In this document: positions 12,384 to 48,712 of the stretch, in pieces
Numbering within the stretch: position 1 is the first letter of the stretch
Layout of the letters: each line of letters begins with the position of its first letter
The notes under the pieces: generated by a model
Told to the model about the DNA's origin: nothing
The model's input: only the letters and a program-made list of their open reading frames with translations
Databases searched by the model: none
Program-made: the position numbers and the translations under genes
DNA from: a virus
DNA: 48,856 bases
Virus record (IMG/VR): IMGVR_UViG_3300037341_000028
Span: 1 to 48,856 of that record
Strand: one strand, 5' to 3'

Positions 12384-13514
12384 CTACGCCTCTACCTTCT
12401 CCACCGTCAACCCTTCCGCCTCACATCGCTGTAGGATAATCTCGCAAAAGCCTGGATCGATTTCAATCATCCGGGCTATGCGGCCTGTGCGGTGTGCTGC
12501 AATCAGTGTAGCACCGCTACCTCCAAAAGGCACATACACCAGGCTTTCAGGTGAACTGTATTGTTGAAGCAGCGACACGAGCACATCAAGCGGCTTTTCG
12601 TGTTTGTGGTGCACGCTTGTATAGGAACTCTCGAAAAATGTTGACGGTGGCGCCCCGTTTTCTCCACGCCATTCGGCGTTGTAATAATCAATATTAAAAA
12701 TCCAAATATTACGATGATGGCAAAATGGACGTTGACCGCTGTACATCCGCCCAAAATGGAATCGCCACACCAGATCAACATCAGGCCAGTTTTGCCACTC
12801 CAAACATACCGGAGATAATTCAAACGCCATGCCCCATAGGGTTATAGTACCCTGGCATAGTTCTAATGCGTCAACCTGTTGGATCACACCCATTTCATAT
12901 GGCGGATCAACCTCAGAAAATGACGCCCGCTCGCCCTGCATCAACCGTTCCACTGTCGCCGGGTCGGTGCAGTCTCCACAGATGAGCCGATGCACGCCGC
13001 CGAGGAGCCACACGTCACCCGGCTGCACGCGGCACGACGCGGCCTCGTCGGGTTCAAACTCATCGCCGCCATTGCCGGGCTCGGGCAGTTCCGGCGTCAA
13101 TCCATCAAGCAGCGCGCCATACTCGGCATCGTCAAACCCCATCGCAGCAATGTCAAAATCAGCCTGCTGCAACTCATCAAGCAGCGCAGCCAGTTCGGCG
13201 TCGTCGGGTTCGGCCCCGCGCCGCGTCTCGTTGTCAGCTACGAGATAGGCCATGGCCTGCTCTTCTGTCCAGTCGTCGGGAAGATGGGTTAGTTGAGTGA
13301 CACGCAACGATGTATAGCCGAGATGCTGTGCAGCCAGGTACACGCCGTGGCCCGCGACGATGGTGTCGCCGTGCACCACGATAGGGCGCACCTGACCGAA
13401 CTGGCGCAAGCTGGCAGCAAGCCGCTCAATCTGCTCAGGCGGGTGCTGATTGTAGTTGCGCGGGTGTGGCGACAGCGTATCAATGTCGCGTGTCTGTTCA
13501 ATCGGTTCGCTCAC
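12384..13514 (-). CDS. ParB-like domain plus DNA N6/N4 methyltransferase
   Basis: 376 residues from a GTG. Residues 11-75 form a ParB/sulfiredoxin-like domain (LSPHPRNYNQHPPEQIERL, then IVAGHGVYLAAQHLG). Residues 160-370 form a beta-class amino-methyltransferase: catalytic DPPY at 203-206, HEKP at 305-308 and the SAM-binding VYVPFGGSGATLIAA at 326-340. Such proteins methylate adenine or cytosine on phage DNA, often as protection from host restriction. The usual residue after DPPY is Gly; here it is Glu. It precedes the terminases and follows lysis-side genes. Target sequence is unknown. Confidence 0.85.
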   Translation of the reverse strand: MSEPIEQTRDIDTLSPHPRNYNQHPPEQIERLAASLRQFGQVRPIVVHGDTIVAGHGVYLAAQHLGYTSLRVTQLTHLPDDWTEEQAMAYLVADNETRRGAEPDDAELAALLDELQQADFDIAAMGFDDAEYGALLDGLTPELPEPGNGGDEFEPDEAASCRVQPGDVWLLGGVHRLICGDCTDPATVERLMQGERASFSEVDPPYEMGVIQQVDALELCQGTITLWGMAFELSPVCLEWQNWPDVDLVWRFHFGRMYSGQRPFCHHRNIWIFNIDYYNAEWRGENGAPPSTFFESSYTSVHHKHEKPLDVLVSLLQQYSSPESLVYVPFGGSGATLIAAHRTGRIARMIEIDPGFCEIILQRCEAEGLTVEKVEA

Positions 13515-24483: not shown

Positions 24484-24708
24484 ATGAGTGACCGTGCCAC
24501 GCGATACCGCAAGCGCCATCCGGAGCGTGTCAAGGAGGCACAACGCCGCTGGCGCGAGCGCAACCGCGAACAGCGCCGCGAATACAACCGCGAGTATAAG
24601 CGGCGAACGCAGAAGGGCTACCGCCAGCGCCGCAAGGTTGCGCTATGGAATAGCATTATAGGGGTGTACGAGCGTGACGAAACAACAGACATTTGTAGAG
24701 ACACCTGA
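24484..24708 (+). CDS. Highly basic helical protein
   Basis: 74 residues, starting right after the previous stop. Residues 5-52 are almost only Arg, Lys, Glu, Gln and Tyr (RYRKRHPERVKEAQRRWRER and NREYKRRTQKGYRQRRK), one long basic helix likely to contact nucleic acid, similar in feel to N-terminal parts of phage HNH-associated proteins. Overlaps the next gene by 35 bases. Confidence 0.55.
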   Translation: MSDRATRYRKRHPERVKEAQRRWRERNREQRREYNREYKRRTQKGYRQRRKVALWNSIIGVYERDETTDICRDT

Positions 24709-25585
24709 ACCTGAAGCCATTTTACGCGCTGCTGTGGCCGCGTATGAGCCGCGCCTTGTTGTGGCTGCCGTGTCAGGAGGGCGCGATAGTATTGCAGCCG
24801 CGCACGTCGCCAGTCAGCACCCGCGATTTGCAGGCGTTTTGCACCTCAATACAGGCATCGGTATTGAGGAAACACGCCAGTTTATACGCGACGTGTGCCA
24901 GGATCGTGGCTGGCGGCTCTGGGAGTATCGCGCTGTGGATAACTGCCGTGCTGATGGTACACCTGATCCAATGGTGTACGAGCGCCTCTGTATTGAACAC
25001 GGGTTCCCCGGCCCGGATCAGCATCGCAAAATGTACAGCAAACTGAAACAGCGCCCGCTCGCTATGTTTTTGCGGCATATTAAAGAGCGGCGCGGTGACA
25101 GGATTATGATTGTAGATGGCATCCGCAGTCAAGAGAGCGTACGAAGAATGGGCAATGCTGCGCTACAACGGCGCGACGCGAAAACCGGCTGTTACTGGTC
25201 ATCGCCGCTATACTATTTCGACAAAGGCCAACGCGACGAATACACAGCAGCCTATGACTTGCCTGTCAATCCGGTGTCGGAGCGGTTGTGCATGTCGGGC
25301 GAATGCAAATGCGGTGCCTATGCGACGATAGGCGAGCGCGATTTGGATAGGTTTTTCTATCCTGATTTCGCCGCCGATCTGGATAGGATTGAGCAGGCAG
25401 TACAGGCAGCTCGCGACGACTACAACGTCTGGGGATGGGCAGCCACACCAGAACACGCCCGCCGCTGGGCGCGTCAACGTGTGCCAGCGGGGCAATCTGA
25501 TTTTTTGCCGCTTTGTGTCGGCTGCGATAATCGGATGGCAATGCAAGCTGAAGTGATAGGAGAGCAGGATGGCACGACGCGCTAA
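24674..25585 (+). CDS. PAPS-reductase-like ATP pyrophosphatase family protein
   Basis: 303 residues from a GTG. The PP-loop SGGRDSIAAAHVA at about 34-46 binds ATP; GVLHLNTGIGIEETRQFI and VDGIRSQESVRRMG match the core of the phosphoadenosine phosphosulfate reductase superfamily. Cys pairs LCMSGECKCGAY (about 214) and LCVGCDNR (about 281) look like an iron-sulfur or metal site, as in DndC and related phage proteins. It may activate sulfur or adenylate a substrate for nucleic acid modification; the phage roles of this family are not settled. It overlaps a VRR-NUC nuclease gene by 17 bases. Confidence 0.8.
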   Translation: MTKQQTFVETPEPEAILRAAVAAYEPRLVVAAVSGGRDSIAAAHVASQHPRFAGVLHLNTGIGIEETRQFIRDVCQDRGWRLWEYRAVDNCRADGTPDPMVYERLCIEHGFPGPDQHRKMYSKLKQRPLAMFLRHIKERRGDRIMIVDGIRSQESVRRMGNAALQRRDAKTGCYWSSPLYYFDKGQRDEYTAAYDLPVNPVSERLCMSGECKCGAYATIGERDLDRFFYPDFAADLDRIEQAVQAARDDYNVWGWAATPEHARRWARQRVPAGQSDFLPLCVGCDNRMAMQAEVIGEQDGTTR

Positions 25586-26737: not shown

Positions 26738-26884
26738 AGGCGTGGCTAGGCATGGCTAGCCTTTGGCGAGGTGTGGCACGGCATGGCAGGGCAGGCTAGG
26801 CACGGCTGGGCGAGGCACGGCAGGGCAGGCGTGGCGTGGCTTGGCGGCCCCCGGCATGGCGGGGCGGGGCATGGCAAGGCGTGG
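26738..26884 (+). repeat. GC-rich pentamer array 1 (NGGCN units)
   Basis: About 147 bases of imperfect tandem five-base units of the form NGGCN, most often AGGCA, TGGCA, GGGCA, CGGCA and TGGCG. It fills the region 26699-26911 between the Myb-like gene and the next start, apart from an AT-rich stretch at 26699-26737 that may hold a promoter. Strand-asymmetric (G-rich on +). See array 2 at 28168. Confidence 0.85.
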
Positions 26885-26911
26885 ATTTTATTCACAATAG
26901 GAGGTAACACG

Positions 26912-27520
26912 ATGGCAGCAACAGCCAAGAAGGATGCAGGGGTAGTAGAGGTTCCGGGGATTGATATCCTTCGGGTGAATGTTCGGATTGTCGGCATGTC
27001 GGAACTGGTGATGCACGCATGGTCTGATAAAGCAAAGAAGCAGATGCTCGATAAGCAGATGGGGAAGGCGGCCCAGAAGCGGGAGACGAAAGACCCGCAG
27101 CGGGATTATGAAGAGGCGTTCTACCGCCTCCCCGACGGGCGCCCGTGTTTCCCCTCTATTGCCTTTAAGGCTGCGATTGTGAGCGCCGCTCGGCAAGTGG
27201 ACGGGTTGCCGATGACGTTTCTGCGTGGTGCACTCCATATCGATGGCGAGTTTGTGCCGATTGAAGGCGAGCCGCGTATGAGGGAGGACACGGTACGCGT
27301 GGGCAATGGCACCGCCGATCTGCGCTACCGGCCCGGCTTCCCAGAGTGGAGCGCCACACTGCCCATCCGCCTCAATCGCCGGGCCTTGACGCTTGAGCAA
27401 CTTCTGGCACTGATTGATCAGGCGGGGTTCTCGGTTGGGGTTGGGGAGTTTCGCCCAGAGAAGGATGGGGCATGGGGTATGTTTGAGGTAGACATTAATG
27501 CTGTGGAGGTGCTCAATTGA
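26912..27520 (+). CDS. Conserved phage protein upstream of repeat array 2, unknown activity
   Basis: 202 residues from the ATG at 26912 (AGGAGGTAACACG upstream). The body contains LVMHAWSDKAKKQMLDKQMG, YRLPDGRPCFPSIAFKAAIV, PRMREDTVRVGNGTADLRYR, PIRLNRRALTLEQLLALIDQ and GVGEFRPEKDGAWGMFEVDI. I recognise this order from other tailed phages, where the gene sits in early modules; the glycine-rich end recalls RAMP/Cas7-like folds but that is only an impression. It is flanked on both sides by the pentamer arrays together with the next gene. Confidence 0.7.
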   Translation: MAATAKKDAGVVEVPGIDILRVNVRIVGMSELVMHAWSDKAKKQMLDKQMGKAAQKRETKDPQRDYEEAFYRLPDGRPCFPSIAFKAAIVSAARQVDGLPMTFLRGALHIDGEFVPIEGEPRMREDTVRVGNGTADLRYRPGFPEWSATLPIRLNRRALTLEQLLALIDQAGFSVGVGEFRPEKDGAWGMFEVDINAVEVLN

Positions 27521-28167: not shown

Positions 28168-28382
28168 ACACGGCAGGCAAGGCTAGCGGGGCTAGGCAGG
28201 TCCCGGCCCGGCAAGGCTTGGTATGGCAAGGCAAGGCAGGCATGGCAGGGCAGGGCGTGACCAGGCAAGGCTCGGCATGGTTGGGCAAGGCTTGGGAACC
28301 TGGGCACGTTCGAAAACTGCCCACAAGGCAGGCGGGGCAAGGCGCGGCGTGGCCAGGCCGGGCGAGGCGTGGCACGGCAAGG
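28168..28382 (+). repeat. GC-rich pentamer array 2 (NGGCN units)
   Basis: About 215 bases of the same degenerate pentamers as array 1, starting at the stop of the preceding gene and ending 26 bases before the dCTP-deaminase-like gene. It is interrupted at 28297-28326 by an island containing a hairpin (TGGGCA at 28301-28306 and TGCCCA at 28318-28323). An ORF passes through it only because the repeats lack stop codons. Confidence 0.85.
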
Positions 28383-28408
28383 TTTTTTACAGAAGGGAGA
28401 GGGGGGGT

Positions 28409-28969
28409 ATGATATTAGGAAACGACGCAATCAAGGCGGCGCTTGACGCGGGCCACATCGTGTGTGATCCCGCGCCCGACGCTGCCGCTATCCAGACACA
28501 TATCGACGTGCATCTAGGCGCAGCGTTCTGGGTGCCGCGCCCGAATAGCGCGCCGATTGACATGCGGCACTGCGACCCACACGACTACTATATGTTATTA
28601 GAGAACTGCACAGAACACGACCCGGTGATACTGTCGCCGGGCGGGTTTGCACTGGCACACACCGACGAATACGTCGGCACTACGGTGCCGTGGCTGGAGC
28701 CGCACCTCGAGACGCGCTCGACCGTGGCGCGGTGGGGCATCACCGTCCACGTGAGTGCCGGGATAGGCGACGCCGGGTATTGCTCACGGTGGACACTCGA
28801 GCTGTACAACCACAACAACGTTTCCATCCGGGTATACGCCGGGCTACGTATCGGATTAATCAAATTCTACCGCGTCGAGAGTAATAGCAGCCTCTACACA
28901 GGCCGATACAACACGCCTGCAACCGAGTGGCAGGCCACGGCAATGCTGCCGCGCCGGGGGAATGTATGA
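28409..28969 (+). CDS. dcd: dCTP deaminase / dUTPase family enzyme
   Basis: 186 residues from the ATG at 28409 behind AGGGAGAGGGGGG. It has the trimeric dUTPase-like fold order: MILGNDAIKAALDAGHIV, VILSPGGFALAHTDEYVG (conserved P-G-x-F-x-L), ETRSTVARWG with Ser104 and Arg108, VSAGIGDAGYCSRWTLELYN with Glu131, and YAGLRIGLIKFYRV. Ser, Arg and Glu fit dCTP deaminases, which make dUTP from dCTP. It likely adjusts nucleotide pools for phage replication; whether it also hydrolyses dUTP cannot be told. Confidence 0.85.
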   Translation: MILGNDAIKAALDAGHIVCDPAPDAAAIQTHIDVHLGAAFWVPRPNSAPIDMRHCDPHDYYMLLENCTEHDPVILSPGGFALAHTDEYVGTTVPWLEPHLETRSTVARWGITVHVSAGIGDAGYCSRWTLELYNHNNVSIRVYAGLRIGLIKFYRVESNSSLYTGRYNTPATEWQATAMLPRRGNV

Positions 28970-32721: not shown

Positions 32722-32777
32722 TTGTACAGGATTGACACAACGTGTTATAATTGGCTTATAAGTTTGTTATAAGTTGT
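32722..32777 (+). promoter_or_regulatory. parC: parM promoter with three 11-bp tandem repeats (parC candidate)
   Basis: Three contiguous 11-mers at 32745-32755 (TTATAATTGGC), 32756-32766 (TTATAAGTTTG) and 32767-32777 (TTATAAGTTGT). They overlap the -10 region: TTGTAC (32722), 18 bases, TATAAT (32746), or TTGACA (32732), 19 bases, TATAAG (32757). In plasmid R1, ParR binds 11-bp direct repeats around the parM promoter to form the centromere and repress the operon. The same repeat length and place here support a parC function; only three copies are seen, against ten in R1. Confidence 0.7.
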
Positions 32778-32792
32778 TGTGAGGAGGGGTGT

Positions 32793-33845
32793 ATGCATGT
32801 CGTGTATGATGATGGGGCTGGATTGACAAAGGCAGGCATAGCGGGCAATGGAATGCAGGTCACGGCGATACCAGCACTGGTGCTACCCGTTGAGGCGGGT
32901 ATGGATGAGGAGTACCTATTGCGTTCTGATGTGATTGTTATCGGTCATAATCGTAATCAGTATCTTGTGGGCGATGCGGCCCGCGCACAGGGCGCCACTG
33001 CCTATGCCACAAGCAACTACCGCTACACGTCGCCAGATGCGCGCATCCGCCTCTACGCGGCGCTGTCCGAACTACTCCCGCCTGGAGAGCACGCCATTCG
33101 GATGGTCGCGGGGGCGAACGCGGAAGCATATCGCGCATTAAAACGCGATATTCAAGACTTCTTCACAGGCTCACACGAGTTCACGCGAGCGGACGCGAGC
33201 TACCGTGTGAATATCACAGACGTGCATGTGACCTCACAGCCGCGTGGCGCCGTGCTCTATTTCAGCGCACATACTCCTGCTGAACTGAAACAGGCACTCC
33301 AGAAGCGACCGCTCCATAGGGCCAACATTATTGGTATTGACGTGGGCACATTCACCACCGATTTGATCGCGCTCCGGCCCGAACGGCGCGCCGATGGCAG
33401 CAGTGAAATGCAAGAAATCTACCGGCGTTCTAAAGCGTTGCGGTTTGGCGTCCAGACGCTACGCAATAAGGTTGCCGAGTTGATCCAGCGATTGCAAGGC
33501 GCGCCGGGTCTGCCGGAACTCTGGGAGGTTGATCGGGCCATTGCAGAGCGGGTTGTGACCATTGACGGCAAGGATGAGAGCATCGCGCCTGAGATTGACG
33601 ACCTTCGTGATAGTCTCTGGGCACGCGCACATGAGGAGATACGTGCCCATTTTGAAGGTTTCTCAACGCATTATTTGCTGGTTGTCGGAGGAGGCGCAAC
33701 AGATACGACGTTCGGGCCGTCCATTCGTGCAACGTGGCACGGAAAACTGCCGATGGGAATGCCAGAAAAACACGCGCCACACGAGGCGCCTGTCAGGGGA
33801 TATGCAGAAATGGCTGTGCAGAAGTGGGGCCGTGACAATGCCTGA
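32793..33845 (+). CDS. parM: ParM-like actin, segregation ATPase
   Basis: 350 residues from the ATG at 32793 (GAGGAGGGG upstream). Actin-fold motifs are clear: phosphate 1 VYDDGAGLTKAG at 4-15, phosphate 2 IIGIDVGTFTTDLIAL at 179-194 and adenosine motif YLLVVGGGATD at 294-304. Length and motif spacing match ParM/StbA and related plasmid actins (about 320-350). These polymerise into filaments that push or pull DNA bound through ParR. The parR-like gene overlaps its end by 8 bases, and three 11-bp repeats precede it. Phage relatives such as AlpC move prophage DNA, an alternative role. Confidence 0.9.
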   Translation: MHVVYDDGAGLTKAGIAGNGMQVTAIPALVLPVEAGMDEEYLLRSDVIVIGHNRNQYLVGDAARAQGATAYATSNYRYTSPDARIRLYAALSELLPPGEHAIRMVAGANAEAYRALKRDIQDFFTGSHEFTRADASYRVNITDVHVTSQPRGAVLYFSAHTPAELKQALQKRPLHRANIIGIDVGTFTTDLIALRPERRADGSSEMQEIYRRSKALRFGVQTLRNKVAELIQRLQGAPGLPELWEVDRAIAERVVTIDGKDESIAPEIDDLRDSLWARAHEEIRAHFEGFSTHYLLVVGGGATDTTFGPSIRATWHGKLPMGMPEKHAPHEAPVRGYAEMAVQKWGRDNA

Positions 33846-44915: not shown

Positions 44916-45365
44916 CTATAATAGCGTTGGCTTACCCGACGGCTTGAGCGTGACATTTGCCACGGCCCGACCATCGATCGGCGTTTCAACACTAAAACTC
45001 ATCACAAACGCTGTCACTGTAAATGTTGCAATCACGCTGTCGTTACTCTTGACTTCAACCATCCAGTCGCGATTGCAGCCTTCAATCCAGTCGTTATAGA
45101 GCATCCGGTGTGACGTTTCGGTCGGTTGCCAGTTCACCACCATCTCGATATCATCGGCGGTTTTCAGACCACTGATAAACGTGGTAAACCCGTCCGGCGT
45201 ATCGTGATGGGTTGTCTCAATCTCTGCAGTAGAGCCGCCTGGTGGATTGATCTGATTGATATATGTGACGCGTGTCCATTGTGGATTATTGGCGTCACCA
45301 TCGGAGCGCCACAGCGTCGTGCCGTATGCCCAGATAGCATCCCCTGTTGTTGGGCAGTTTGCCAT
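44916..45365 (-). CDS. Major tail tube protein
   Basis: 149 residues. The chain is the beta-sandwich type of lambda-like tail tube subunits: AIWAYGTTLWRSDGDANNPQ, WTRVTYINQINPPGGSTAEI, ETTHHDTPDGFTTFISGLKT, the central DIEMVVNWQPTETSHRMLYN with a helix, VATFTVTAFVMSFSVETPID and AVANVTLKPSG. D-G-x-x-x-I/F-x-x-G-L and the closing T-L-x-P-S-G are typical. It polymerises around the tape measure. It lies directly upstream of the G/GT chaperones. Confidence 0.88.
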   Translation of the reverse strand: MANCPTTGDAIWAYGTTLWRSDGDANNPQWTRVTYINQINPPGGSTAEIETTHHDTPDGFTTFISGLKTADDIEMVVNWQPTETSHRMLYNDWIEGCNRDWMVEVKSNDSVIATFTVTAFVMSFSVETPIDGRAVANVTLKPSGKPTLL

Positions 45366-45376
45366 GATGCCCTCCT

Positions 45377-45760
45377 CTAGCCCTGATTAGGACGAAATAC
45401 GGCAGCCTTTGCCGTTGCGGTGCCGCTTTCCTCAACCGTCAGGTACACGAGCGAGCCACCGTCAGGTACCCAACCCTCGAGTACCTCAAGTTCAAAAATG
45501 CAGAAGTCCATCCCATTGACTTCCTTGACTTTGTCAGCCTGCACGCCGTACGGGTTGTTCGTACCTTCCACGGTTGCGCTGATGGTATCGTCGCTTGATG
45601 CCGCGTCATTCCAGACGATCAACACGTCGCCTTTTTTGGCGTTGAAACTATTCGCACTGGCGCCCGTGTCCAAGTCTACCCACGCGCCGGTGGCCGCGCC
45701 ATTTGCCGACGCCAGCGACGGGTACGTCCCTACGCCTTCTACTACGGTAATCGTCGCCAT
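45377..45760 (-). CDS. Small beta-rich protein next to the tail tube, probable virion protein
   Basis: 127 residues. All-beta, Ala- and Gly-rich: MATITVVEGVGTYPSLASAN, GDVLIVWNDAASSDDTISAT, VEGTNNPYGVQADKVKEVNG and LEVLEGWVPDGGSLVYLTVE. This resembles small Ig-like or decoration proteins that cover tail tubes or capsids. Between a glycosyltransferase-methyltransferase and the tail tube, it might be the glycosylated substrate. No family is named. Confidence 0.6.
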   Translation of the reverse strand: MATITVVEGVGTYPSLASANGAATGAWVDLDTGASANSFNAKKGDVLIVWNDAASSDDTISATVEGTNNPYGVQADKVKEVNGMDFCIFELEVLEGWVPDGGSLVYLTVEESGTATAKAAVFRPNQG

Positions 45761-46870
45761 CTAGCCCTCCTTGTGAGCTTCTACATAAAAACTATGGTTC
45801 GTGCGAAATGGGTCATCGATATCGATGCGGCTGTCGAATGCAACCGGCTCCGCTGTTGCAAAGCCTGCTGCCAGTAGTACATCGCACAGGCGCGGCACAT
45901 CCCAGACATAGCGATGCGGATCGCGTGCCACGTTAAATATAATAGCGTTAACGTAATCAATCGGCTGTGGTTCCTCCACGCCGGGAATGGCAGAGCACAC
46001 GAACTGCGTAAATCCCTGCCAGTCAGACACGTCCCCACGTACATAGTCAGCGAGGAGGCGCGGCACATCTGGCAGCACGAGCCGCACGACACCACCAGGC
46101 AGTAGCGCCCGGTGGCACTCGTCAATCAGTTTCGACGCGACGGAATAGTCGAGATGCTCCAGAACGTGCGATGCATAGATGTAGTCAATGCTGTTGTTAA
46201 AAAATGGCAGCCCCTGTCGGATGTCGTGCGCCTTGACGCCTGCACGGGGCGCGCTGTCAATGTTAATCCAGCCATCGCGCACGTCGGTGCCACACCCCAG
46301 ATTTACCATCACATGGCGCGGCGCGCCGTGCGATTGACGATTGAAGTAGCACAAAACTTCGTCCACAAAGCGGAAATCCTCGGGACATTGCTCGTACAAT
46401 TCCTGGATAAAAATACCATCATGCACGGGCAATTCGCACCACCGCAGGTCGCCGATCAGGTCGCGGCGCAGTACGAACTGCGCTGTGTCGATACTGCCGA
46501 TGCGGACGTTTTCCGGTGCGGCTTGCAGCAGACGCCGCTCGTCGGCGCGCTCCTGCGAAAACACAAACGCCCGCGCCTCCGGCTGCGCTGCGATTTCCTC
46601 TTCGAGCCGCCGAAAAAATCCCGGATGCACGCTGTTGTCATCGTCCAAAATCCAAACCCACCCATCACGGATACTGGAGAGTGCCGCTTCAACGTTACGC
46701 GCCATATCAGCCCGCCCATTGCCGGGATGTGTGGCGCCGTGTGGGTGGATGATGTAGTGCCGAATATCCAGGTTGTGTCCTTCGGCAGCGTTCAGGCTCT
46801 CGAAGATGCCCGGTAGATATCCCGGTCTGCTCAGTGCAGTGATAATGGTTAGTGTTGGGTACTCGCTCAT
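45761..46870 (-). CDS. Glycosyltransferase-methyltransferase fusion
   Basis: 369 residues. Residues 1-175 are a GT-A-type glycosyltransferase: TLTIITALSRPGYLPGIFES, then WVWILDDDNSVHPGFFRRLE with the D-D-D-N metal site at about 75-78. Residues 185-365 are a SAM-dependent methyltransferase: VNLGCGTDVRDGWINID (motif I), IDYIYASHVLEHLDYSVAS and ALLPGGVVRLVLPD. This order suggests that a sugar is added and then methylated, possibly on a virion protein or on host wall glycan. The gene overlaps the other glycosyltransferase by 4 bases and lies between tail completion genes and the tail tube, an unusual place. Confidence 0.8.
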   Translation of the reverse strand: MSEYPTLTIITALSRPGYLPGIFESLNAAEGHNLDIRHYIIHPHGATHPGNGRADMARNVEAALSSIRDGWVWILDDDNSVHPGFFRRLEEEIAAQPEARAFVFSQERADERRLLQAAPENVRIGSIDTAQFVLRRDLIGDLRWCELPVHDGIFIQELYEQCPEDFRFVDEVLCYFNRQSHGAPRHVMVNLGCGTDVRDGWINIDSAPRAGVKAHDIRQGLPFFNNSIDYIYASHVLEHLDYSVASKLIDECHRALLPGGVVRLVLPDVPRLLADYVRGDVSDWQGFTQFVCSAIPGVEEPQPIDYVNAIIFNVARDPHRYVWDVPRLCDVLLAAGFATAEPVAFDSRIDIDDPFRTNHSFYVEAHKEG

Positions 46871-47562
46871 GCCTCAATCCTGTGCATCTTCTCTTCGTTG
46901 ATATCCGGCCATAGCGTGACAAACGCACCTTCCTGCATATCGATATGCCCACATACGATGGACGTATCACACACCTGTTTGATGCCTGCCATCTGGCAGT
47001 CGAATGCAAAATAGGTGTCTTGCGAGGAGTGAGCGCCTTCTCCAATGCGGTGCTCCACACGGTAGCGGATGTGTTCCAGAACGCGGCGACGAATGAGGGT
47101 AAATCCGTTGCCCTGGCCCTCGCATTCGATCACGCTGCCCCACGCGGCTCGCGCCCGCTCTGGGAAAAATGACAATGACTGTCCTGTGAACGTCACGTTA
47201 TCCATCGCCGGAAACGCATTCCAACGATAGAACGGCGGCTGTCGGAAACAGTAAAGCGCATAGCCAACATCGGCGTCGTGCTCGTCTAGCGTGGCAAGCA
47301 TCCTCGTCAAGGCATCCTTTTCAAACACGATATCTTGTTCGACAGTCAGTAGGTAGTCATAGTTGCCGCGCAAGCACATATCGCGAGCTTGATTGTACTT
47401 CCAGGCGATGCGTGTTTTCGCGTCGGCTATGTGTTCGTCGCCGCCTCGCAGCATCACAATGTCAGACTGGTATGCCCGGCTGTGCTGGAGTTGGAATAGA
47501 CTATCCAGAGTGCGGCGATGGATGCCCGTATGGATGGGGATGGCAATCAAAACGTTAGACAT
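46867..47562 (-). CDS. Glycosyltransferase (GT-A fold)
   Basis: 231 residues. Starts NVLIAIPIHTGIHRRTLDSL as in GT2-like enzymes; DYLLTVEQDIVFEKDALTRM holds the metal-binding E-Q-D triad at about 75-77 and GNGFTLIRRRVLEHIRYRVE follows. No membrane helix, so a soluble enzyme. With the fused enzyme downstream it makes a two-step glycan modification pair. Overlaps neighbours by 8 and 4 bases. Confidence 0.75.
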   Translation of the reverse strand: MSNVLIAIPIHTGIHRRTLDSLFQLQHSRAYQSDIVMLRGGDEHIADAKTRIAWKYNQARDMCLRGNYDYLLTVEQDIVFEKDALTRMLATLDEHDADVGYALYCFRQPPFYRWNAFPAMDNVTFTGQSLSFFPERARAAWGSVIECEGQGNGFTLIRRRVLEHIRYRVEHRIGEGAHSSQDTYFAFDCQMAGIKQVCDTSIVCGHIDMQEGAFVTLWPDINEEKMHRIEA

Positions 47563-47944
47563 AGCGACACACCACCTCTACTCCGGCATGCTGCCAGTTC
47601 TCTTGAAACCACCCGCGAATGACAGCGCGTAGCGCAATCGTTGACGCTGGCACATCTTCCGCTCGCGTCATATCAATATATGCCGTCTCGCCCGCGTTCG
47701 TTGTCTGGTACACGAGTGGCGGCTCGTATGCGTACCAGGCATCACCGTCCGAACTGTGCTCAATCTCCACTGAGACATGCCCGCCGTTCGCATTCCGCCC
47801 GATGGTGATGACCCATTTCAGGGCGTCATACGCCGCGTCAACCGGGCCGACGACGCGTCCGCTTGTGCCGTTCATCAGTGCGAATGGCTTCTGGCGTGCC
47901 ACAATGCCGAGCCGCTCCAGTTGTGCTGTCGATACTGCTATCAT
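47555..47944 (-). CDS. Tail-module beta protein, unknown
   Basis: 129 residues, ATG overlapping the previous stop. Contains ITIGRNANGGHVSVEIEHSS, DGDAWYAYEPPLVYQTTNAG and STIALRAVIRGWFQENWQHA. The pattern is that of a carbohydrate-binding or jelly-roll-like beta domain. It sits between the DUF3168-type tail completion gene and the glycosyltransferases. No family is named. Confidence 0.6.
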   Translation of the reverse strand: MIAVSTAQLERLGIVARQKPFALMNGTSGRVVGPVDAAYDALKWVITIGRNANGGHVSVEIEHSSDGDAWYAYEPPLVYQTTNAGETAYIDMTRAEDVPASTIALRAVIRGWFQENWQHAGVEVVCRYV

Positions 47945-48318
47945 CCCCGTCCTATGATGTAATCTTGCCGCGATACGTAATAATCCACATCCGGCTCATA
48001 ACTCGCCACCTGATTACGAAGGAACACGCGCCCCACTCTGACGCCGCCCATATCGCCAGAGAAGCCCGACAACCGCTCGCGTATCTTATCGAGCAACTCA
48101 TCGGCATCGATACGCCGCACACCAAACGCGCTGATCTGAATGCGCACATCATCAGTGCAGGTATCGCCCTCGTGCGTGTAGGACGGCGCGGTGCTGATGC
48201 GCTGATAGATGGCAGCAGGCAGATCGGGCTGCTGCGGTAGCCTGTCTGGATAGAGCCGCAAATCCGTGATGCTGCTCTTCAGGTATGTCCACAACCCCTG
48301 CTCAATCGATGGCGTCAT
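47941..48318 (-). CDS. Tail completion protein (DUF3168-like)
   Basis: 125 residues. SIEQGLWTYLKSSITDLRLY and PDRLPQQPDLPAAIYQRIST, then TDDVRIQISAFGVRRIDADE, follow the order of DUF3168/gpU-like proteins: N-terminal helix, P-x-x-P-A-I/V-x-Y/F-x-x-I-S, and a later strand with I-x-x-S/D-x-x-x-x-x-x-x-A-x-x-L. They cap the tail end that joins the head. It overlaps the gp10-like gene by 17 bases. Confidence 0.8.
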   Translation of the reverse strand: MTPSIEQGLWTYLKSSITDLRLYPDRLPQQPDLPAAIYQRISTAPSYTHEGDTCTDDVRIQISAFGVRRIDADELLDKIRERLSGFSGDMGGVRVGRVFLRNQVASYEPDVDYYVSRQDYIIGRG

Positions 48319-48712
48319 TTATCGCATCCCGTAGCGCGTCCTGAATTTCCAGGTATGCATTTTCGCGTTCCTGATCAAACGCGGGCCTCAGGTACGGCTG
48401 CGCTGGCTGGCTGTAGAGCCGTCCAAGTTTGTCACGTCCGTTAAAGCCGAACTCGATACGCCGCGCATAGGCCAGGTTCGTCCCGATAGCTGCGCTGGCA
48501 CTCGTGGCGCTGCTCTCACTGATCTGCACCGTGATGTCGCGGCGAAGCGTGCCAGTCTTGACAGGCGCTCTCACCTGCGCCTCGTTTTTGATAAGTTGCC
48601 CGCCGGTGAGCACCGCCGCCTCCAGTTTCGCCTGTCGCATCTCCTCGGACATGTCTAACAACTTGCGCTTAAGTTCGGGTAGTCCCTCAATTGTCACGTT
48701 GCGCTTCGCCAT
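48302..48712 (-). CDS. HK97 gp10-like tail/neck protein
   Basis: 136 residues. VTIEGLPELKRKLLDMSEEM, a long helix, then IKNEAQVRAPVKTGTLRRDI and AAIGTNLAYARRIEFGFNGR, ending with QPYLRPAFDQERENAYLEI. This is the signature of HK97 gp10 family proteins (G-L..L...L, A-P-x-x-T-G-x-L-R-x-S/D-I, Y-A-x-x-x-E-F-G, P-F/Y-x-x-P-A). They act at the head-tail junction. Starts 15 bases after the small two-helix membrane gene. Confidence 0.9.
   Translation of the reverse strand: MAKRNVTIEGLPELKRKLLDMSEEMRQAKLEAAVLTGGQLIKNEAQVRAPVKTGTLRRDITVQISESSATSASAAIGTNLAYARRIEFGFNGRDKLGRLYSQPAQPYLRPAFDQERENAYLEIQDALRDAINDAID

Follow-up and report, generated by a model that had tools for sequence, protein, structure and literature searches.

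A glycosyltransferase and a glycosyltransferase-methyltransferase fusion in a viral tail operon form a candidate virion-glycosylation module

Glycosylation of phage tails is already known, from few isolates. Mycobacteriophages use their own glycosyltransferases (GTs) to glycosylate the capsid and the tail tube, as described in two reports (PMC12363180, PMC12619734). The algal virus PBCV-1 encodes A064R, a GT-GT-methyltransferase fusion that caps the capsid glycan with O-methyl-rhamnose (PMC9614988), and the capsid protein of STIV is glycosylated and its A197 protein is essential (PMC10551542). The candidate locus described here shares phage-encoded GTs with the tailed mycobacteriophages Che8, Corndog, and Myrna, in which the tail tube and capsid are the acceptors; it differs in carrying a methyltransferase joined to one of its GTs and in the place of the pair, between the tail terminator and tail tube genes. 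Phage-encoded GT genes, as in the mycobacteriophage systems, occur here together with virion structural genes, in this operon and in relatives.

The window, that is, the whole stretch of DNA analysed, is a 48,856-base virus record. Its tail operon includes the following features, given in minus-strand order:

48302-48712, minus strand: gp10-like gene
47941-48318, minus strand: tail terminator of the tail completion gp17 family, 125 aa (PF11367, E 2.3e-12; phrog_347)
47555-47944, minus strand: 129-aa protein with no family assignment, directly before GT1 and overlapping it by 8 nt
46867-47562, minus strand: GT1, a predicted GT-A-type glycosyltransferase of 231 aa (phrog_1574 family)
45761-46870, minus strand: GT plus methyltransferase fusion, whole ORF, 369 aa
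46322-46870, minus strand: N-terminal GT-A half of the fusion, residues 1-183, as judged from an AlphaFold2 model, PDB comparison, and separate-gene homologues
45761-46321, minus strand: C-terminal half of the fusion, residues 184-369 plus stop, a predicted class I SAM methyltransferase (PF08241)
45377-45760, minus strand: 127-aa protein with no family assignment, between the fusion and the tail tube
44916-45365, minus strand: major tail tube protein, 149 aa, a leading candidate acceptor (PF16461, 2.6e-11; phrog_158, 4.9e-21)

The tail tube gene is followed by two chaperone-type genes and then the tape measure. The late region runs on the minus strand through the portal, head genes, and capsid, and then across the record ends into the gp10-like gene and onward; a related contig (L028) joins the head and tail parts in that same order. 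GT1 and the fusion overlap by 4 nt, and the fusion and the 127-aa gene abut. Searches of Pfam, PHROGs, and phage records gave neither a family match nor phage relatives for the 129-aa and 127-aa proteins, and no tRNA genes, sought as a clue to the host, are encoded. The GT/methyltransferase pair is confirmed as a genuine feature of the tail operon. An earlier note on this DNA had placed it between tail completion and tail tube genes, which agrees with the terminator (PF11367) on one side and the tube (PF16461/phrog_158) on the other; the layout it described was right, but it omitted a fourth gene, the 129-aa gene between the terminator and GT1.

GT1 is, by family and motifs, a predicted GT-A-type glycosyltransferase. 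It has a sub-threshold match to GT2 in Pfam (E 0.004), and among PHROGs it matches phrog_12406 'glycosyltransferase' (2e-4) and, with an E value of 8.4e-9, phrog_1574, a significant profile match that places it in this viral glycosyltransferase family. A protein of the methanogen virus vir323, annotated as phrog_1574, aligns with 88% of GT1 (E 2e-4) and itself resembles the Anp1, GT21, and GT2 families, all below cut-off. One search of phage records with GT1 at E 1e-3 came back empty, and vir323 is among the matches listed at 2e-4; as these results are uneven, the case for the family rests on profiles and motifs and not on that match alone. With the vir323 protein as query, 107 phage records match, several of them annotated as glycosyltransferase. 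The earlier note called virion glycosylation in phages known but rare; for enzymes of this kind, rarity is unsupported or overstated, the GT1 family having been found in more than 100 phage records.

The GT-A core is expected to contain a DxD motif, a G-loop glycine, an xED aspartate, and a C-terminal histidine (PMC7185993). In an alignment of 12 GT1 family members, D77, G151/G153, D182, and H206 are invariant, and we assigned G151/G153 to the G-loop, D182 to the catalytic xED aspartate, and H206 to the C-terminal histidine. The DxD-type motif is ExD (residues 75-77), its first acid being E75 in the clade of the window and D in the other members. The core residues were recovered both in the 12-sequence alignment and in the alignment to STIV A197 (2c0n), the one good PDB entry found with the wider GT1 family profile (4e-8). 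A197 is a GT-A enzyme of an archaeal virus that matches this profile over the DxD, G-loop, and xED regions, and GT1 D182 aligns in the family profile with A197 Asp151, which is described as the catalytic base (PMC4187194). The clade's own profile finds A197 at only E 0.69, so the match rests on the wider family. STIV differs from the phage of the window in being a non-tailed icosahedral virus, and the papers cited here report no methyltransferase partner for A197. The structure model of GT1, built from a shallow alignment, has a mean pLDDT of 34.

The N-terminal half of the fusion is sub-threshold in Pfam but clear by modelled fold. The AlphaFold2 model is usable over residues 1-176 (pLDDT mostly 60-90), and comparison of residues 1-180 with the PDB gave Z scores of 14-15 to SpsA, RmlT, 6p61, TarS, and TarP (14.9 for both SpsA and RmlT). 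Foldseek additionally retrieved D1 of the PBCV-1 capsid glycosyltransferase A064R at E ~9e-5, and the profile of this half finds AvpGT and TarP at 0.0015-0.005. Its DDD at residues 76-78 is invariant across its family. The modelled fold together with this DxD motif identifies the half as a GT-A domain, the outcome of a fold prediction that the earlier note had proposed as a check. The C-terminal half is assigned by family to the class I SAM-dependent methyltransferases, with a PF08241 (Methyltransf_11) score of 31.0 bits against a gathering score of 21.2 and motif-I-like NLGCG, LPF, LEH, and PGG stretches that are conserved among members of the clade; the model has pLDDT <50 over most of residues 177-323. 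The description of two GT-A-type enzymes, one of them fused to a SAM methyltransferase, is therefore backed by Pfam, by the fold comparison of the fusion, and by the GT1 family profile. Profile comparison detected no relation between GT1 and the GT half of the fusion, both profiles being shallow, and we accordingly treat them as two separate GT-A families.

A064R and the fusion each combine a GT-A domain and a class I methyltransferase on one polypeptide. A064R, for which we compared the PBCV-1 A064R / A061L system, targets an algal-virus capsid N-glycan, shows no close sequence relationship to the fusion, and has a second GT domain (D2). Such a domain is absent from the 369-aa fusion, whose GT half runs straight into the methyltransferase, and the fusion is therefore not classed as an A064R-type member.

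Among the solved structures nearest in fold to the GT half are wall and polysaccharide enzymes (TarP, TarS, RmlT, and WrtF), and in bacteria, GT-methyltransferase pairs that methyl-cap surface polysaccharides are common. Both points would suit enzymes that act during infection on a glycan of the host surface (for example LPS, capsule, or wall polymer) and so stop re-adsorption or superinfection, with the methyl group capping the polymer. We nevertheless regard a host glycan target as unlikely, since the genes lie within the late tail operon and overlap genes on its structural side, and no flippase-type partner was recognised among the genes scanned. Hydropathy analysis also detected no transmembrane segment in GT1 or in the fusion, which counts against the host glycan and argues for a cytosolic acceptor.

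Relatives of the fusion's GT half occur in other viral contigs at 30-39% identity. In three of these (L035, L036, and the L070 group), the relative is encoded on its own and immediately follows one or two stand-alone methyltransferase genes, which belong to Methyltransf_24 in L035, Methyltransf_31/23 in L036, and Methyltransf_11 plus Methyltransf_24 in L070. The L036 cluster continues with one more glycosyltransferase-like gene, a major tail protein (phrog_4574, 3e-8), a gp10-like gene, and the tape measure; the L035 cluster lies within the stretch upstream of the tape measure, and the enzymes of the L070 group are not directly beside tail genes. Proteins encoded side by side in certain genomes and as one chain elsewhere are, in many cases, probably functional partners. 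Two further proteins were noted: a 639-aa protein (L066, 7914-9833) in which a region of the fusion's GT-A family is combined with a GT4-like one, more glycosyltransferase genes lying downstream, and a tail-module protein (L035, 10085-11602) with a YCF48/BNR-type propeller region.

The relatives of GT1 recur beside virion genes. In the cyanomyoviruses P-SSM2, S-SSM7, S-CAM9, S-SKS1, DSL-LC03, and Sf-FS3, the relative precedes the baseplate genes gp25 and gp6 by a few small genes; in spring-water phages it lies between the capsid and tail tubular protein A or adjoins the capsid gene, and in vir323 it comes before tail-fibre-like and collagen-like tail genes. The exceptions are S-TIM5 and one unverified record. 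The phrog_1574 or 'T4-GC 102' proteins upstream of gp25 in cyanophages belong to the same family as GT1 and are likewise close to baseplate genes. Unlike the window, the 'T4-GC 102' records viewed have no fused or adjacent sugar methyltransferase, and some are flanked by 2OG-Fe(II) oxygenases. A virion target, as the earlier note had suggested, is retained as the best reading on two grounds: relatives of both enzymes in unrelated viruses adjoin tail, baseplate, or head genes, and there are precedents among viruses. The same grouping in unrelated viruses speaks against the host surface glycan.

Genes resembling 2OG-Fe(II) oxygenases or prolyl-4-hydroxylases flank the GT1 relative before gp25 in P-SSM2 (L087, 2512-4879) and Sf-FS3 (L084, 3623-4288), which suggests that a cyanophage baseplate protein may be hydroxylated and then glycosylated. 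In vir323 (L081, 7381-9520), the GT1 relative is followed by a tail-fibre-like gene and then by a gene for a tail protein with collagen repeats, a possible glycosylation acceptor. A more far-reaching proposal, which we put forward only tentatively and consider doubtful, is that GT1 belongs to an old viral GT lineage, spanning archaeal and bacterial viruses and dedicated to tail and baseplate glycosylation, which in this clade would work with a fused GT-methyltransferase to produce a methyl-capped tail glycan. The targets of its cyanophage members may be residues that the 2OG oxygenases encoded next to them have hydroxylated.

Within the clade of the window, the order 129-aa gene, GT1, fusion, 127-aa gene, and tube is kept in all 21 related public contigs examined, a few of which begin within the 129-aa gene; an order kept this consistently indicates that the block is not a chance arrangement. 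Both enzymes are under strong purifying selection, with dN/dS values of 0.02-0.05 for GT1 and 0.05-0.07 for the fusion. In the most divergent relative (L024/L029), GT1 (82% identity) and the fusion (77%) rank highest in conservation among the tail-operon genes compared, ahead of the terminator (68%), the 127-aa protein (53%), and the tube (37%). The pair had been described as inserted into the operon. Searches from the terminator and from the tube, covering contigs that reach the locus, found no empty-site relative without the pair; every relative carries it where the contig extends that far, and insertion is therefore unsupported in this clade. No close relatives were found in bacterial genomes.

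A mosaic contig (L023) indicates which neighbours travel with the pair. Between ~48,300 and ~45,900, L023 shares 79-86% identity with the window and 60-75% with L029; the rest of the contig, the 127-aa and tube genes included, is closer to L029 (59-78%) and distant from the window (47-66%). This identity pattern suggests that a single segment was transferred that comprised the terminator, the 129-aa gene, GT1, and the fusion; the 127-aa gene, for its part, probably recombines with the tube side and not with the GT pair. An assembly chimera is unlikely as the source of L023, since its block reaches at best ~82% identity with any sampled contig. The 127-aa gene had been proposed as a companion of the pair: it is present in 21 of 21 contigs, but it goes with the tube in L023. 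Its candidacy as a specific partner is weakened by this mosaic, in which the terminator and the 129-aa gene are linked to the pair instead.

We think it reasonably probable that these genes make up a virion-glycosylation module, expressed late and co-translated, that puts a methyl-capped sugar on a tail-associated protein. GT1 and the GT half of the fusion would transfer one or two sugars in the cytoplasm onto a newly made tail-associated protein, the candidate acceptors being the tail tube and the 129-aa or 127-aa protein, and the C-terminal domain of the fusion would then methylate the sugar as a cap. No sugar-nucleotide genes turned up in the set of proteins scanned, which would leave the host to supply the donor in the form of its nucleotide-sugars. 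That the acceptor is a virion protein, the order of addition, and that the sugar is what receives the methyl group are what we infer. A benefit to the phage might lie in masking of the tail, in stability, or in adsorption. The tail tube of the window is short and single-domain and has no obvious Ser/Thr-rich tail, a difference from the mycobacteriophages, whose reported sites are C-terminal.

The acceptor could instead belong to the head or be a tail protein that binds the receptor, for example the 1125-aa tail protein, which contains the stretch richest in Ser/Thr/Pro of all structural proteins. Some GT1 relatives do adjoin capsid genes, and capsid glycosylation is documented in PBCV-1, known for STIV, and found in mycobacteriophages too. 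The pair in the window, however, sits between the terminator and the tube, away from the capsid gene, and it persists even where identity in the 1125-aa protein has fallen to 25%, which makes such an acceptor quite improbable in our judgement. We consider it less probable still that the enzymes glycosylate and methylate the bases of the phage DNA. Virus-encoded DNA-modifying glycosyltransferases exist (Pyle et al. 2024, as cited in PMC12619734), but the genes described here belong to the late tail operon and not to the replication region, and a scan of ten early-region proteins revealed neither a base hydroxymethylase nor a thymidylate-synthase-like or any other hypermodification gene.

Three points are new for the favoured tail-directed module: a GT-methyltransferase fusion encoded in a tail operon, the occurrence of its counterparts as separate genes elsewhere, and the repeated placement of GT1 family members close to virion genes. 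To our knowledge, a methyl-capped tail glycan has not been demonstrated for any tailed phage. The fusion points to a methyl cap, and methyl caps elsewhere alter the recognition and stability of glycans. That the GT1 family recurs near genes for tails, baseplates, or heads across unrelated tailed viruses suggests that tail glycosylation is commoner than thought, and the family includes the well-cultured cyanophages P-SSM2 and S-SSM7, isolates suited to direct testing.

Several other features of the window lie outside the tail operon. An actin-like protein is encoded at 32751-33845 (ALP_N, 4e-15) and might serve plasmid-like segregation or intracellular phage positioning. Two ORFs (26771-27520 and 28223-28969) have repetitive Gly/Arg/His/Trp-rich translations that stem from low-complexity DNA repeats, and they may not be genes. 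A ParB-like N-terminal domain is fused to a DNA methyltransferase-type region at 12384-13514, and a PAPS-reductase-domain protein is encoded in the early region at 24674-25585.
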